DNA of 64,000 bases, from positions 2,108,001 to 2,172,000 of the forward strand of contig NZ_CP103833.1 of the NCBI RefSeq assembly GCF_029774155.1, written 5' to 3'. Below are positions 6,980-40,879 of this stretch, one piece after another; position 1 is the stretch's first letter, and every line of letters begins with the position of its first letter. The position numbers and the translations under genes were made by a program. The DNA is from Actinobacillus arthritidis. GTDB taxonomy: Bacteria; Pseudomonadota; Gammaproteobacteria; Enterobacterales; Pasteurellaceae. Below the pieces are notes generated by a model. The model searched no databases and was not told the origin of the DNA. It was given only the letters and a program-made list of their open reading frames with translations.

Positions 6980-7506
6980 ATGAAAAAATCTCTATTAGCG
7001 TTAGTATTAGGTGCAACATTAACTTTAGCGACTTGTGATCAAGCAAACCAAGCAAAAGATGCAGTAGCGGCTAAAGCTCAAGAAGCCAAAACTGCAACAC
7101 AAGATGCGCGAAAGCGGTAGCGGACAAAGCAACTGAAGCAAAAGATGCAGTAGCAACTAAAGCGACAGAAATGAAAGATGCGACAGCAGCGAAAGTTGAA
7201 GAAGCCAAAACTGCAACACAAGATGCGCCGAAAGCAGTAGCGGACAAAGCAACTGAAGCAAAAGATGCAGTAGCAACTAAAGCGACAGAAATGAAAGATG
7301 CAGCGGCGAGCAAAAGTTGAAGAAGCCAAAACTGCAACACAAGATGCGGCGAAAGCAGTAGCGGATAAAGCAACTGAAGCAAAAGATGCTTGCAGACAAC
7401 TAAGGCGACAGAAATAAAAGATGCGACAACAACTAAAGTTGAATCAGCGACCGAAGCTGTAAAAGAAAAAGCAACTGAAGTAAAACAAGCAGTTGAAACT
7501 AAATAA
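6980..7506 (+). pseudogene. alanine/lysine-rich repeat lipoprotein, frame broken by several indels
   Basis: ATG at 6980 starts MKKSLLALVLGATLTLATC, a lipoprotein signal with Cys19. The repaired product is about 174 residues, almost entirely amphipathic helix of the form KATEAKDAVATKATEMKDA, resembling apolipoprotein- or LEA-like repeats. The DNA has three tandem units of about 120 bp starting at 7082, 7201 and 7322. Observed spacings of 119 and 121 bp show -1 and +1 slips. Further breaks lie at 7306-7311 and 7388-7395, and the stop at 7504 is reached with a net shift of +2. The gene is either a true pseudogene or intact in the cell and misread here. A long open frame on the other strand is only a shadow of the repeats. 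Confidence 0.7.
7082..7440 (+). repeat. three tandem ~120-bp units
   Basis: Each unit starts GAAGCCAAAACTGCAACAC and encodes about 40 residues of charged amphipathic helix. Units start at 7082, 7201 and 7322; the last diverges from about 7388. Confidence 0.85.
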
Positions 7507-7540
7507 TTCTTGCTAAGGTATCTCCAAACCAAAGCAAAAA

Positions 7541-7632: not shown

Positions 7633-10505
7633 TTAAAGATTTTCAATCGCTTGGTATTGCGTTTGAAGTTTCTCTAAACCATTTTGGTACTCTTGCATTT
7701 TTTCTCGTTCTTTTGCGATTACCGCTTCCGGTGCTTTTGCCACAAAGGCTTCGTTGCTGAGTTTGTTTTCAATGCGAGTGATTTCACCACGCATTTTCTC
7801 GATCTCTTTGGTTAATCGAGCTAACTCTGCTTCTTTGTTGATAAAGCCAGCCATTGGGATTAGCACTTCCACGTTACCCACTAATTTCGCTACTGAAAGT
7901 GGTGCAGTTTCGTCCGCACTTAGTACTTGTACGCTATCTAACTTCGCCATTGCTTTTAACAAGCGGTCGTTTTCCGCAAGAATTTTGCGTTGCTCGTCAG
8001 ATACGTTGCGAACAAGGAATTCTAAGCCTTTACTTGGGGCAATGTTGCTTTCCGCGCGAATGTTACGCACAGCAGTAATAACATCTCGTAACCAGTTGAT
8101 TTCCGCAATAGCCTCATCATCCACTAAATTTTCATCAAATTTAGGGAAAGGCTGAACCATAATTGAGCTATTTTCAGGTAAATTCGCTACAAGTGCTACT
8201 TTTTGCCAAATTTCTTCTGTGATAAACGGCATAATTGGATGAGCTAAACGCAGTAATTTCTCTAATACATCAATTAACGTATCTCTTGCGCCATTTTTTT
8301 GTGTACAAGACCCATTTGCAAATACAGGTTTTGTCAGTTCTAAATACCAATCACAGAATTTATTCCAAGTAAAATCATACACTTCATTTGCGGCTAAGTC
8401 GAAGCGATATTGTCCTAGTGCATCTCTAAATCTTTTTACTGTATTATTAAACTCTGCTTGAATCCAACGATCAGCTAAAGAAAGTTCAAAACCATCTTTA
8501 TCGCTAAGCTCCATACTTGTCACATTCATTAGCACATAGCGGCTCGCATTCCATAATTTATTACAGAAGTTGCGGTAGCCCTCTAAACGTTTCATATCCC
8601 AGTTGATATCACGACCGTTACTTGCTAATGCGGCTAAAGTGAAACGCAATGCGTCCGTACCGTGTGCGGCAATACCATTCTCAAACTCTTTGCGAGTCGC
8701 TTTAGCAATTTTTTCCGCCAGTTGCGGTTGCATCATATTACCAGTGCGTTTTTCGAGTAAATCTTCAAGGGAAATGCCATCAATCATATCGATTGGGTCA
8801 AGTACGTTCCCCTTCGATTTCGACATTTTTTGACCTTGCTCGTCACGAATCAAACCGGTTACATACACGGTTTTGAACGGAACTTGCGGTTTGCCGTTTT
8901 CATCTTTCACAAAGTGCATTGTGAACATAATCATACGTGCAACCCAGAAGAAGATGATGTCGAAACCAGTGATTAACACGTCAGTCGGGTGGAACATTTT
9001 TAGCTCTTTGGTTTGCTCCGGCCAACCTAAAGTTGAGAACGTCCACAAGCCTGATGAGAACCAAGTATCTAACACGTCTTCATCTTGGCGTAATGCAAGA
9101 TCTGCCGGTAAGTTGTGTTTTTGACGCACTTCTTCTTCGTTGCGTGCTACATACACATTACCTGCTTCGTCATACCACGCAGGGATGCGATGTCCCCACC
9201 ATAATTGGCGAGAGATACACCAGTCTTGAATATCACGCATCCAAGAGAAGTAAAGGTTTTCGTATTGTTTCGGTACGAATTGGATTTCGCCGTCTTCTAC
9301 CGCTTTAGTTGCTACTTCCGCAAGTGGTTTCACGCTTACATACCATTGGTCGGTTAGCATTGGCTCAATTGGCACGCCACCACGGTCGCCGTAAGGTACT
9401 TTCAAATCGTGCGGTTTGATGTCGTCTAATAAGCCTAACGCTTCAAAATCCGCCACCACTTTTTTACGCGCGCGAAACGCTCTAAGCCTTGATAATCCGC
9501 AGGGATTTTCGCTTCATAAGTCGTTAGTGGTTTACCGTCTGTACCGATAATTTCCGCTTCCGCACGGATATCCGCATTCATCGTCATCACGTTTACCATT
9601 GGCAAGCCGTGGCGTTTACCTACTTCGTAGTCGTTGAAATCGTGTGCCGGGGTAATTTTTACTACACCAGTACCAAACTCACGATCAACGTATTCGTCCG
9701 CCACAATTGGGATTTCACGGTTTGCAAGCGGTAATACTACCGTTTTACCGATTAATGATTGATAACGCTCGTCTTCTGGGTGAACTGCCACTGCCGTATC
9801 GCCTAATACGGTTTCAGGACGAGTAGTCGCTACCACTAAGTAATCTTTGCCGTCTGCGGTTTTCGCACCATTTGCTAACGGATAACGGAAATGCCAAAGC
9901 GAGCCTTTACTCTCTTTGTTTTCCACTTCTAAATCTGAAATAGCCGTGTGAAGTTTTGGATCCCAGTTTACGAGGCGTTTACCACGATAAATCAAGCCTT
10001 CTTCGTGTAAGCGAACGAACACTTCTTTTACCGCATTCGATAAGCCTTCATCCATGGTGAAACGTTCACGATCCCAGTCGATTGAGTTGCCTAAACGACG
10101 CATTTGTTGGCTGATTGTGCCGCCTGAATAAGCTTTCCAATCCCAGATTTTGTTGATGAAAGCCTCACGCCCATAATCGTGACGAGTTTTGCCTTCTTCC
10201 GTCGCGATTTTACGCTCCACCACCATTTGGGTTGCGATACCCGCATGGTCTGTACCGGTTTGCCAAAGGGTATTGTTACCTTCCATACGGTTGAAACGGA
10301 TTAATGTATCCATTAACGTTTGTTGGAAAGCGTGTCCCATATGCAATGAACCGGTTACATTTGGCGGTGGAATTGCGATACAGTAGCTTGGTGCATTAAT
10401 ATCTTCGCTCGGTTTAAAATAGCCTTGCGATTCCCAGTGTTGGTAGAGTGCTTGCTCTACGGCGGAAGGGTTAAAACGGTCTTCCATTGTGAATTGTTTG
10501 GTCAT
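7633..10505 (-). CDS. valS: valyl-tRNA synthetase (one frameshift)
   Basis: Class I aminoacyl-tRNA synthetase charging tRNA-Val; about 957 residues when repaired, the usual length. The HIGH-type motif is in [14 protein letters not shown] near residue 45; the editing domain follows; KMSKSKGNV lies in the 3' half; the C-terminal 65 residues form the tRNA-binding coiled coil. The frame breaks at 9470-9473: GCGC replaces the GCTGC (coding strand GCAGC) needed for the conserved ERFAARK. A single missing base in an essential gene is probably a sequence error. In enterobacteria holC lies directly upstream; here about 3.8 kb of other genes separates them. Confidence 0.95.
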
Positions 10506-38936: not shown

Positions 38937-40128
38937 TTATTTAACCGTTACACGAGCAAATTTACGTTTACCAACTTGATAAACAAAAGTGCCTTGTTGT
39001 GCGTTTTGACGAACATCTTCCACTTTTTCGCCATCAATTTTTACGCCGCCTTGCTGTGCTGAACGAATCGCTTCAGAAGTTGACGCAACTAAACCGGCTT
39101 CTTTTAATAAAGTCGCTAAACCAATTTCGCCTTCAAAAGTAAATTCCGGCATTTCATCTGGGATTGCACCTTTTTGGAAACGGTTGATAAACTCTTGTTC
39201 TGCTTGCATCTGCCGCCGCTTGATCGTGGAAACGAGCAATTAACTCTTTCGCTAAAAGAATTTTCACATCACGTGGATTTTTACCGGTCGCAACGTCTGC
39301 TTTTAATTGTGCAATTTCATCTAATGGGCGGAATGAAAGTAAATTATACCAATCCCACATTAATTCGTCTGAAATCGACATCACTTTACCGAACATATCG
39401 CTTGGTGCGTCTGTAACACCGATATAATTACCAAGTGATTTTGACATTTTTTTCTCGCCGTCTAAGCCGACAAGTAGTGGTAATGTCATTGCCACTTGTG
39501 GTTTTTGACCCGCTGATTTTTGTAGCTCACGACCTACTAATAAGTTAAAGGTTTGGTCTGTACCGCCCAATTCAACATCCGCTTCTAACGCAACAGAATC
39601 ATGACCTTGTAGTAACGGGTAAATAAATTCGTGAATTGCGATAGATTGGTTATTGGTAAAACGTTTTTTGAAATCGTCACGCTCAAGCATACGTGCAACC
39701 GTATAGTTTGACGCAAGGCGAATCATCCCTTCCGTACCTAATTTACCTAACCACTCAGAGTTGAATACTACACGAGTTTTATTCGGATCTAAGATCTTGA
39801 ATAATTGTTGTTTATAGGTTTCCGCATTGCGTAATACGTCTTCACGGGTGAGCGGTGGGCGAGTTGAGTTCTTACCAGACGGATCACCGACCATACCGGT
39901 AAAATCCCCGATTAAGAAGATCACTTCGTGACCAAGTTGTTGGAACTGGCGAAGTTTATTTAAAACAACGGTATGACCTAAGTGAATATCCGGGGCTGTC
40001 GGATCCGCACCTAATTTAATGCGTAACGGACGATTTTCTTTTAGCTTTTCAATTAAATCTTCTTCAGAATAAATGTTTTCAACACCGCGTTTCAGTTCGG
40101 CTAAGGTTGCTTCAATAGATTGAGCCAT
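38937..40128 (-). CDS. tyrS: tyrosyl-tRNA synthetase (one frameshift)
   Basis: About 396 residues when repaired; class I synthetase of the TyrRS type 2 (TyrZ-like) group with HLGHTVVL as HIGH motif near residue 50, KMSKSLGN near 230, and a C-terminal S4 RNA-binding domain (about 335-395). The frame breaks at 39202-39207, GCTTGC for GCTGC (coding GCAGC); repair gives [21 protein letters not shown]. One added base in an essential gene suggests an error. The upstream 280 bp hold a likely Fur-controlled small RNA. Confidence 0.95.
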
Positions 40129-40221: not shown

Positions 40222-40291
40222 AAAAAAAACGCCTCATTTTGTGGGGGAATGAGGCGTAAGAGTTGGAGTGATTACCTATTATTTTTGAAGT
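40222..40291 (-). ncRNA. candidate Fur-repressed small RNA, ~70 nt
   Basis: The minus strand shows a complete small transcription unit inside a 280-bp gap. The promoter has -35 TTGCTT (40321-40326) and -10 TATCAT (40298-40303) with exactly 17 bp between. Seven bases on, transcription would start near 40291. It would end at a strong terminator: ACGCCTCATT/AATGAGGCGT (40229-40238 with 40248-40257) and U8, whose loop carries an unpaired C5 run. A Fur-like box covers the promoter. This is the structure of iron-stress RNAs such as RyhB, NrrF and the Haemophilus HrrF RNA; sequence homology to these was not tested. Confidence 0.6.
40229..40257 (-). terminator. intrinsic terminator of the small RNA (and/or the 40409 gene)
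   Basis: Ten-base-pair stem ACGCCTCATT/AATGAGGCGT with a run of eight A on the plus strand, giving U8 on the minus transcript. Confidence 0.9.
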
Positions 40292-40297
40292 GATTTA

Positions 40298-40326
40298 ATG
40301 ATAATAATTCTCATTAATATAAGCAA
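40298..40326 (-). promoter_or_regulatory. sigma-70 promoter with overlapping Fur-like box
   Basis: Minus-strand -35 TTGCTT, 17-bp spacer, -10 TATCAT. The 19-bp plus-strand sequence GATAATAATTCTCATTAAT starting at 40300 matches 14 of 19 positions of the Fur consensus and covers spacer and -10. A second, weaker match (12 of 19) lies upstream near 40352-40372. Confidence 0.6.
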
Positions 40327-40408
40327 TAATCTTTACAAATACTTACAAATAAGAATCCTTATCATTTACTACAATAAATAATAGGTTTGTATTCCAATCT
40401 CTTTACGT

Positions 40409-40879
40409 TTAGGCTTCTCTACAATTTAACCAAGGAACACGAGTCCCATTGATATTTCTATAATAAATTGAGCTTTGTTCACCGGCAATTAAATCAATGT
40501 AGCTACCTTGAATTGGATTGTATGAGCGATAGCTCACTTCAAAACGGGTACCTCTCGCATTAAGCGTTTTATTTTCGAGATGATCAAAGGCTTCGACTTT
40601 ACCACCGTCTAACTGAAAGTAAAAACCGAAATTATCTTTCATACGGCTTTCTCTAGAGAGAGGAAAATAGCTCGCTAAATAAGCACTATCACCGGTTGCA
40701 AGATTACGACAGGTATAATAATAACGTTTATAGTTTGCCGGATTGTGTAATTCGGCTTGGCTAATATTCGCCTTTAAATAACCGCCTTTGGCATTTTTCG
40801 ATGTTTGTGACGGTGTACACGCAAATAATGCGGTCAGTGTTGAAGTTAATAAAATAAGTTTAAGTGTGTTCATATCCAT
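40409..40879 (-). CDS. small lipoprotein of unknown function
   Basis: 156 residues with a lipoprotein signal (lipobox LFAC, Cys21 from the first Met; a second Met two codons later is an equally good start). The mature part has two Cys pairs at most (YTCRN near 56, WLNCRE at the end) and a beta-rich pattern (FGFYFQLDGGKVEAF, TRFEVSYRSY, SSIYYRNINGT). It slightly resembles MliC-type lysozyme-inhibitor lipoproteins and adhesin-complex proteins, but no key motif is present. It lies between the small RNA and a repeat element. Confidence 0.7.
   Translation of the reverse strand: MDMNTLKLILLTSTLTALFACTPSQTSKNAKGGYLKANISQAELHNPANYKRYYYTCRNLATGDSAYLASYFPLSRESRMKDNFGFYFQLDGGKVEAFDHLENKTLNARGTRFEVSYRSYNPIQGSYIDLIAGEQSSIYYRNINGTRVPWLNCREA

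Follow-up and report, generated by a model that had tools for sequence, protein, structure and literature searches.

A conserved, putatively Fur-controlled small RNA of Pasteurellaceae with predicted pairing to mRNAs of anaerobic respiratory enzymes

RyhB of Escherichia coli, PrrF and NrrF are Fur-controlled intergenic small RNAs (sRNAs) that repress iron-using enzymes, and all three have Rfam families. We analyzed a 64,000-nucleotide (nt) stretch of the Actinobacillus arthritidis genome (contig NZ_CP103833.1, positions 2,108,001 to 2,172,000; hereafter the window), in which an element between tyrS and a lipoprotein-like gene very likely represents a real, conserved, Fur-controlled sRNA. Judged from sequence, this sRNA is likely Fur-repressed and RyhB-like, acting in trans to spare iron by repressing translation of molybdenum/iron-sulphur respiration enzymes. 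The Rfam families HrrF (RF02728) and JA01 to JA04 (RF02729 to RF02732) were described previously (PMC5753348). HrrF of Haemophilus influenzae is preceded by pmbA and a Fur-like box, and its reported targets include the molybdate uptake genes modABC (PMC4144887). A 2010 study of Actinobacillus pleuropneumoniae reported that anaerobic respiratory enzymes fell broadly under iron restriction, and its text describes a role for RyhB or other sRNAs in Pasteurellaceae as still awaiting demonstration (PMC3091793).

The element is organized on the minus strand of the window as follows. G and L numbers are our handles for genomes and loci, G000 being the A. arthritidis genome itself.

40222..40291, minus strand: predicted sRNA gene of about 70 nt, predicted +1 near 40291 (promoter spacing, terminator and match to model R1)
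40321..40326, minus strand: −35 hexamer TTGCTT (from sequence; three of six positions as in TTGACA; 17-nt spacer)
40298..40303, minus strand: −10 hexamer TATCAT (from sequence)
40299..40313, minus strand: Fur-like box TGAGAATTATTATCA overlapping the −10 hexamer (one mismatch to consensus)
40350..40364, minus strand: second, weaker upstream Fur-like box (three mismatches; not significant alone)
40275..40283, minus strand: 5′ leader AAUAAUAGG, complementary to ACCTATTATT upstream of napA in G010 and G013
40262..40274, minus strand: invariant 13-nt leader seed UAAUCACUCCAAC, complementary to the ribosome-binding site and start codon of fdnG and a ykgE-like gene
40229..40257, minus strand: terminator stem-loop with covarying stem; loop CCCCCACAA is the second proposed seed (napA, dmsA)
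40222..40229, minus strand: U tail of eight T, the first of which also closes the stem (from sequence)

The Fur 15-mer consensus is TGATAATNATTATCA. With at most one mismatch it matched the 64 kb once, whereas 100 shuffles averaged 0.02 matches. The sequence-only reading had placed a promoter within a Fur-like box on the minus strand (40326 to 40222), followed by a strong terminator with U8 and a C-rich loop and lacking an open reading frame (ORF), and this layout was confirmed. The terminator stem ACGCCTCATT/AATGAGGCGT forms ten pairs, the predicted 70-nt RNA folds at −14.6 kcal/mol against −5.05 for shuffles (standard deviation 2.02; z −4.73), and no ORF of at least 60 amino acids overlaps the unit. 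The same reading had noted the weaker Fur match upstream, which held in part: the window contains 11 matches with three mismatches against 9.99 expected, so this box alone is at chance level, but relatives often have a second upstream box with at most three mismatches (15 of 23 and 47 of 64 distinct regions, compared with some 2.5% of mononucleotide shuffles). A simple promoter scan did not list the sRNA promoter, nor did a terminator scan, whose loop limit is 8 nt against 9 nt here, list the terminator. Because the −35 hexamer is weak and neither signal was listed by the automatic scans, the case rests on conservation.

We compared the element with the described sRNA families. No Rfam family, including those of RyhB and NrrF, matched the window at the gathering threshold. 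Chance matches to the PyrG leader, SpF11 and PrrF (E 0.35 to 0.6) were far under the thresholds and were rejected; that to PrrF was a weak alignment of 19.2 bits (threshold 90, E 0.6). HrrF (cut-off 77 bits) matched neither the window nor the element in 17 homologous loci at E ≤ 0.1 in cmscan, and JA01 to JA04 gave no match at the element in 17 (E ≤ 0.1) and 16 (gathering) homologous loci, which include three of Aggregatibacter actinomycetemcomitans. The genome carries an HrrF-like element elsewhere, at G000:C1:663586-663688 (L039; 34.8 bits against the cut-off of 77); it follows a frame identified by eye as PmbA and has a Fur-like box upstream. Elements of this kind, below the Rfam cut-off, were found in seven of eight other genomes of the genus searched, the eighth giving no match; the Rfam HrrF model seems too narrow for the genus.

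Since the HrrF-like element occupies a separate locus of the same genome, two distinct families coexist. A comparison with HrrF had been proposed together with the initial prediction, and its outcome is that the element is not HrrF. A diverged copy of HrrF or of JA01 to JA04 would belong to the same bacterial family and show the same apparent Fur control, but the separate HrrF-like locus and the lack of any cmscan match to these families at the element make such an origin most improbable, and we rejected it. Like HrrF, the element appears Fur-controlled and confined to Pasteurellaceae; unlike it, it has about 70 nt instead of about 97, lies outside the pmbA-hpt interval and has a different conserved core. 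With JA01 to JA04 of Aggregatibacter it shares the class of iron/Fur-regulated sRNAs and the bacterial family, but these models matched none of the three A. actinomycetemcomitans loci of the element. According to the text of the HrrF paper, the H. influenzae JA03 and JA04 orthologues lack nearby Fur boxes. As with RyhB, PrrF and NrrF, a Fur-controlled intergenic sRNA is predicted to repress iron-using enzymes; it differs from them in its size and in having two proposed pairing modules, and its sequence is unrelated to RyhB. It thus appears RyhB-like in predicted action but outside every family tested, forming a second family beside HrrF.

An iron-responsive sRNA of A. actinomycetemcomitans may correspond to the element. 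Two sRNAs of strain 624 were reported to rise under iron restriction, one being the HrrF homologue; both are among five sRNAs of the direct Fur regulon, and the second has nitrite reductase as a predicted target (PMC5156373). This unnamed second sRNA could be the RNA described here.

Conservation was first assessed by BLASTN with a 201-bp query. The element was found in 24 of 25 Pasteurellaceae genomes (all except G018) among 41 genomes searched, and the seed and loop were present in all 24 loci. Outside the family, the matches in G025, G031 and G037 were 25 to 40 bases long and lay over the two Fur-like boxes; we did not treat them as homologues. We then used a covariance model (R1), built from alignment A2 of 14 RNAs with stems in register. 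It scored 100.9 bits at G000:C1:2148222-2148291, which is window 40222 to 40291, the window sequence being one of the 14 model sequences. Conservation across Pasteurellaceae, proposed at the outset as a check, was evident: 136 of 140 family genomes matched (misses G018, G135, G144 and G145), with two matches each in G059 and G122 and a single copy in the other matched genomes. The model matched 19 times in a sample of 247 genomes of the order, always within Pasteurellaceae; these two large searches were run with the stricter filters of Infernal, at the cost of weak matches. Scanning named genomes with a sequence pattern yielded 81 stretches, and 78 of the 80 listed belong to genera that we take to be Pasteurellaceae. 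The species include H. influenzae, A. actinomycetemcomitans, M. haemolytica, H. ducreyi and H. somni. Saprospiraceae and Erythrobacter rows had neither a Fur-like box nor a T run and look like chance matches.

The seed UAAUCACUCCAAC and the CCCCACA loop were invariant in 36 aligned RNAs, those found by pattern being invariant by selection because the pattern search selects for both; our conservation claims thus rest first on the BLAST-found loci. In the stem, six of ten pairs changed on both sides, and 98.6% of cells were paired against at most 55.7% in slid controls; the covariation score was reached by none of 500 shuffles. All distinct regions, 24 BLAST-found and 75 pattern-found, had a Fur-like box with at most two mismatches (as did less than 1% of dinucleotide shuffles), and the best of four spacings gave a −35 with at least four of six positions in 73 of 101 rows, an uncontrolled count. 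Rows with fewer than 100 bases upstream were dropped from these two counts, and the BLAST-found and pattern-found sets share some genomes. Together, the conserved Fur box, leader, loop and terminator support the earlier proposal of a Fur-controlled sRNA. The weak −35 of this genome would fit a Fur site next to a terminator that lacks any transcription of its own, but the invariant unpaired leader and loop, the spaced promoter and the near-universal, single-copy presence in Pasteurellaceae leave that explanation very little room.

Two variants of the locus were observed. Pasteurella bettyae (L119) has two tandem copies (7490-7525 and 7649-7684), 159 bp apart and each with its own Fur-like box. 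In six Rodentibacter loci and that of H. seminalis (L048, L056, L058, L078, L080, L084 and L107), the distance from promoter to invariant seed is about 20 to 27 nt longer, and the added stretch looks hairpin-like by eye.

Candidate targets were sought by complementarity. The 12-mer TTGGAGTGATTA, allowing one mismatch, matched the A. arthritidis genome 27 times, at the sRNA gene and at 26 other sites; over 12 genomes it matched 255 times and the reversed control 150 times. Four of the 26 lie on the sense strand exactly over a Shine-Dalgarno sequence and start codon; the genes concerned encode formate dehydrogenase-N alpha, a dimethyl sulfoxide/selenate-family reductase A, a SirB-family protein and a porin. 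Another is located 68 nt before a cydA start, and the remainder are within frames, antisense or unassigned. The exact 12-mer GGAGTGATTATG occurred 42 times in 30 Pasteurellaceae genomes against five for its reversed control, which keeps neither Shine-Dalgarno nor start codon. These sites comprise 14 at fdnG, five at a SirB-like gene, three at a CCG-domain ykgE-like gene, one each at genes for YtfE-like and presumably Hmp- and CysG-like proteins, and 17 at other genes, short frames or unassigned positions. The SirB-like membrane gene, with GGAGTGATTATG at its start in five genomes (L323, L324, L311, L329 and L350), is a possible, unexplained target; its Pfam SirB assignment rests on the A. arthritidis gene.

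For the loop, the pattern TTGTGGGGN{3,9}ATG gave 25 matches in five genomes against 13 for the reversed control, many opening only short frames and so not being gene starts. They include napA in G010 and, in the Mannheimia-like G110, a ykgE-like gene and two redox proteins, pieces of which carry a TAT signal and a 4Fe-4S domain according to Pfam. The exact leader pattern ACCTATTATTT was abandoned, as its matches were mostly away from gene starts and did not outnumber those of the reversed control (30 against 37, seven genomes).

We evaluated four target genes in orthologues from 30 genomes of 27 genera, searching for each protein. The background comprised 430 initiation regions after removal of one that proved to be fdnG (A. 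segnis); before its removal this was the sole background region with GTGGGG. Each genome's own leader and loop were used here; the row of G041 (sRNA not parsed) and the A. arthritidis napA row (frame-broken at the start) were dropped. Among 27 fdnG initiation regions, 16 contained the motif GGAGTGAT, and among 29 of napA, 20 contained GTGGGG; in the background each was present in 0 of 430. The leader duplex ranked in the best 1% for 20 of 26 fdnG, 9 of 19 ykgE-like, 5 of 28 napA and 3 of 14 dmsA regions, and the loop duplex for 2 fdnG, 2 ykgE-like, 19 napA and 6 dmsA regions. The start is uncertain in some DmsA-like rows.

The targets had been chosen in the light of their matches: fdnG and dmsA in G000, the ykgE-like gene in G010, G066, G068 and G110, and napA in eight genomes among loci from the DmsA search. 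We therefore left out the genomes that suggested each target and used a matched background of 80 regions that also contain GGAG or GGGG, with the leader and loop of the window. All eight genomes were excluded in the napA loop test; a first matched test had excluded only G010 for napA. The leader was significant for fdnG (p 2e-10, 25 rows) and modestly so for the ykgE-like gene (p 0.002, 15 rows); the loop was significant for napA (p 6e-10, 20 rows, GTGGGG in 14 of 20) and modestly so for dmsA (p 0.002, 13 rows). An HrrF-like decoy was not significant for any of the four genes. The orthologues are not independent, so these p values are overstated. The C5 run and the leader, singled out as candidate seeds from the sequence, thus correspond to invariant parts that each have conserved predicted mRNA partners. 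As would be expected of a Fur-repressed iron-sparing sRNA, the locus combines a conserved Fur box over the promoter, a noncoding unit that by sequence is independent and has its own terminator, and predicted complementarity to mRNAs of iron-using proteins.

We propose the following mechanism. With iron present, Fur-Fe would cover the promoter, where the conserved box overlaps the −10 hexamer; when iron is low, the RNA of about 70 nt would be made. Its unpaired leader UAAUCACUCCAAC would pair with the Shine-Dalgarno sequence and start codon of fdnG and the ykgE-like gene, and the terminator loop CCCCACA with the G-rich Shine-Dalgarno sequence of napA and, in some species, dmsA. Such pairing, the complementarity for which is conserved, would block translation of iron-sulphur/molybdenum anaerobic respiratory enzymes. 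We lean slightly toward a broader statement, that this is the missing RyhB of Pasteurellaceae, a Fur sRNA of ancestral origin that is mostly present in single copy and blocks Shine-Dalgarno sequences with two independent modules (leader for fdnG and the ykgE-like gene, loop for napA and dmsA). If so, low iron would switch off molybdenum/iron-sulphur anaerobic respiration, HrrF meanwhile lowering molybdate uptake. With a conserved candidate whose pairing sites are explicit, the question of a RyhB role becomes directly testable in a family with many human and livestock pathogens, and the element calls into question HrrF as the sole Fur-regulated sRNA of H. influenzae.

Published expression data were compared with the predicted targets; we take the ykgE of the arrays to be the ykgE-like gene considered here. 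In A. pleuropneumoniae microarrays under iron limitation, dmsA, napFDAGHBC and fdxG were reported as lowered, and quantitative PCR gave 0.12 of control for ykgE, 0.18 for napB and 0.30 for fdxG (PMC3091793). The same trend was seen in an earlier array for dmsA, ykgE, napF and the gene of formate dehydrogenase-N alpha, named bisC there (PMC1832192). A 2025 study reported log2 changes in mRNA and protein of −1.97 and −3.61 for fdnG, −6.27 and −3.09 for dmsA, and −3.03 and −3.78 for napA, and eight sRNAs changed under iron starvation (PMC12507848). In A. actinomycetemcomitans, the anaerobic reductases lowered under iron restriction are all described as Fur-activated (PMC5156373). These data agree with direct control without proving it, and many other anaerobic genes fall too.

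Several observations weigh against the proposed role. The fdn, nap, dms and ykg genes were reported to be HlyX/ArcA-controlled (PMC3091793), and the fall of these enzymes under low iron could be transcriptional. The text of Santana 2014 reports no putative sRNA besides HrrF as Fur-dependent in H. influenzae RNA-seq; its libraries were TruSeq, which may under-represent 70-nt RNAs. In one A. pleuropneumoniae Hfq co-immunoprecipitation list, no entry names flanking genes that fit. In our own tests, all four genes also showed a shift for the reversed leader relative to the unmatched background, with scores below it (p 2e-4 to 2e-11), which indicates that G-rich Shine-Dalgarno sequences inflate that comparison and that a matched background is needed. 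Against the latter, the leader was not significant for napA and dmsA. Among 200 shuffled leaders, one did at least as well as the real leader for fdnG, and likewise one for the ykgE-like gene. The dmsA case is weak (GGAGTGAT in 1 of 15, GTGGGG in 3 of 15), and the A. arthritidis napA has GTGGGA instead of GTGGGG. As the seed is invariant, compensatory changes between RNA and target could not be sought.

An alternative is a Fur-regulated sRNA with other main targets (e.g., the porin, the SirB-family gene or cydA), the enzyme genes falling via HlyX/FNR and ArcA, in line with their reported HlyX/ArcA control. The seed also fits the porin and SirB-family initiation regions in this genome, and the exact match recurs at the SirB-like gene in five genomes. 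We regard this alternative as unlikely, albeit the most serious one, because the fdnG and napA matches are far above the Shine-Dalgarno-matched background and recur across genera. Repression of the respiratory enzymes remains the preferred reading.

We found no paper on this locus, and several published sRNA tables could not be mapped to it: those of A. pleuropneumoniae JL03, H. somni and M. haemolytica mostly give locus tags, and the M. haemolytica and JL03 sRNA texts do not contain "tyrS". A vesicle sRNA list of A. pleuropneumoniae had no entry with fitting named flanks.

The neighbouring genes in the window are the following.

38937..40128, minus strand: downstream neighbour tyrS, frame-broken in this assembly
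40409..40879, minus strand: upstream neighbour, lipoprotein-like ORF (by eye) of 156 amino acids without a Pfam family

The terminator lies 93 nt upstream of the tyrS start on the same strand, an arrangement that an iron-controlled cis-acting leader or attenuator of tyrS would also show. Automatic ORF calling gave tyrS as the gene following the element in 16 of 24 BLAST-found and 54 of 75 pattern-found loci; a tblastn re-check placed it 0.3 to 0.7 kb downstream in L097 and L054, giving 56 of 75, and 3.8 kb downstream in L070. However, the RNA is also kept at loci followed by a different gene, 8 of the 24 and 19 of the 75. Linkage is thus lost in many species in which the RNA persists, so a tyrS leader is highly improbable and was rejected in favor of an independent sRNA. 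Upstream, sfsA (SfsA by NCBIfam) was found in 7 of 24 BLAST-found and 48 of 72 pattern-found loci. In the window, tyrS consists of two overlapping frames, a tRNA-synt_1b part and an S4/C-terminal part, and relatives such as L002 have one frame (396 amino acids in L002). The A. arthritidis napA (L416) is also frame-broken near its start, and the two broken genes together suggest indel errors in this assembly.
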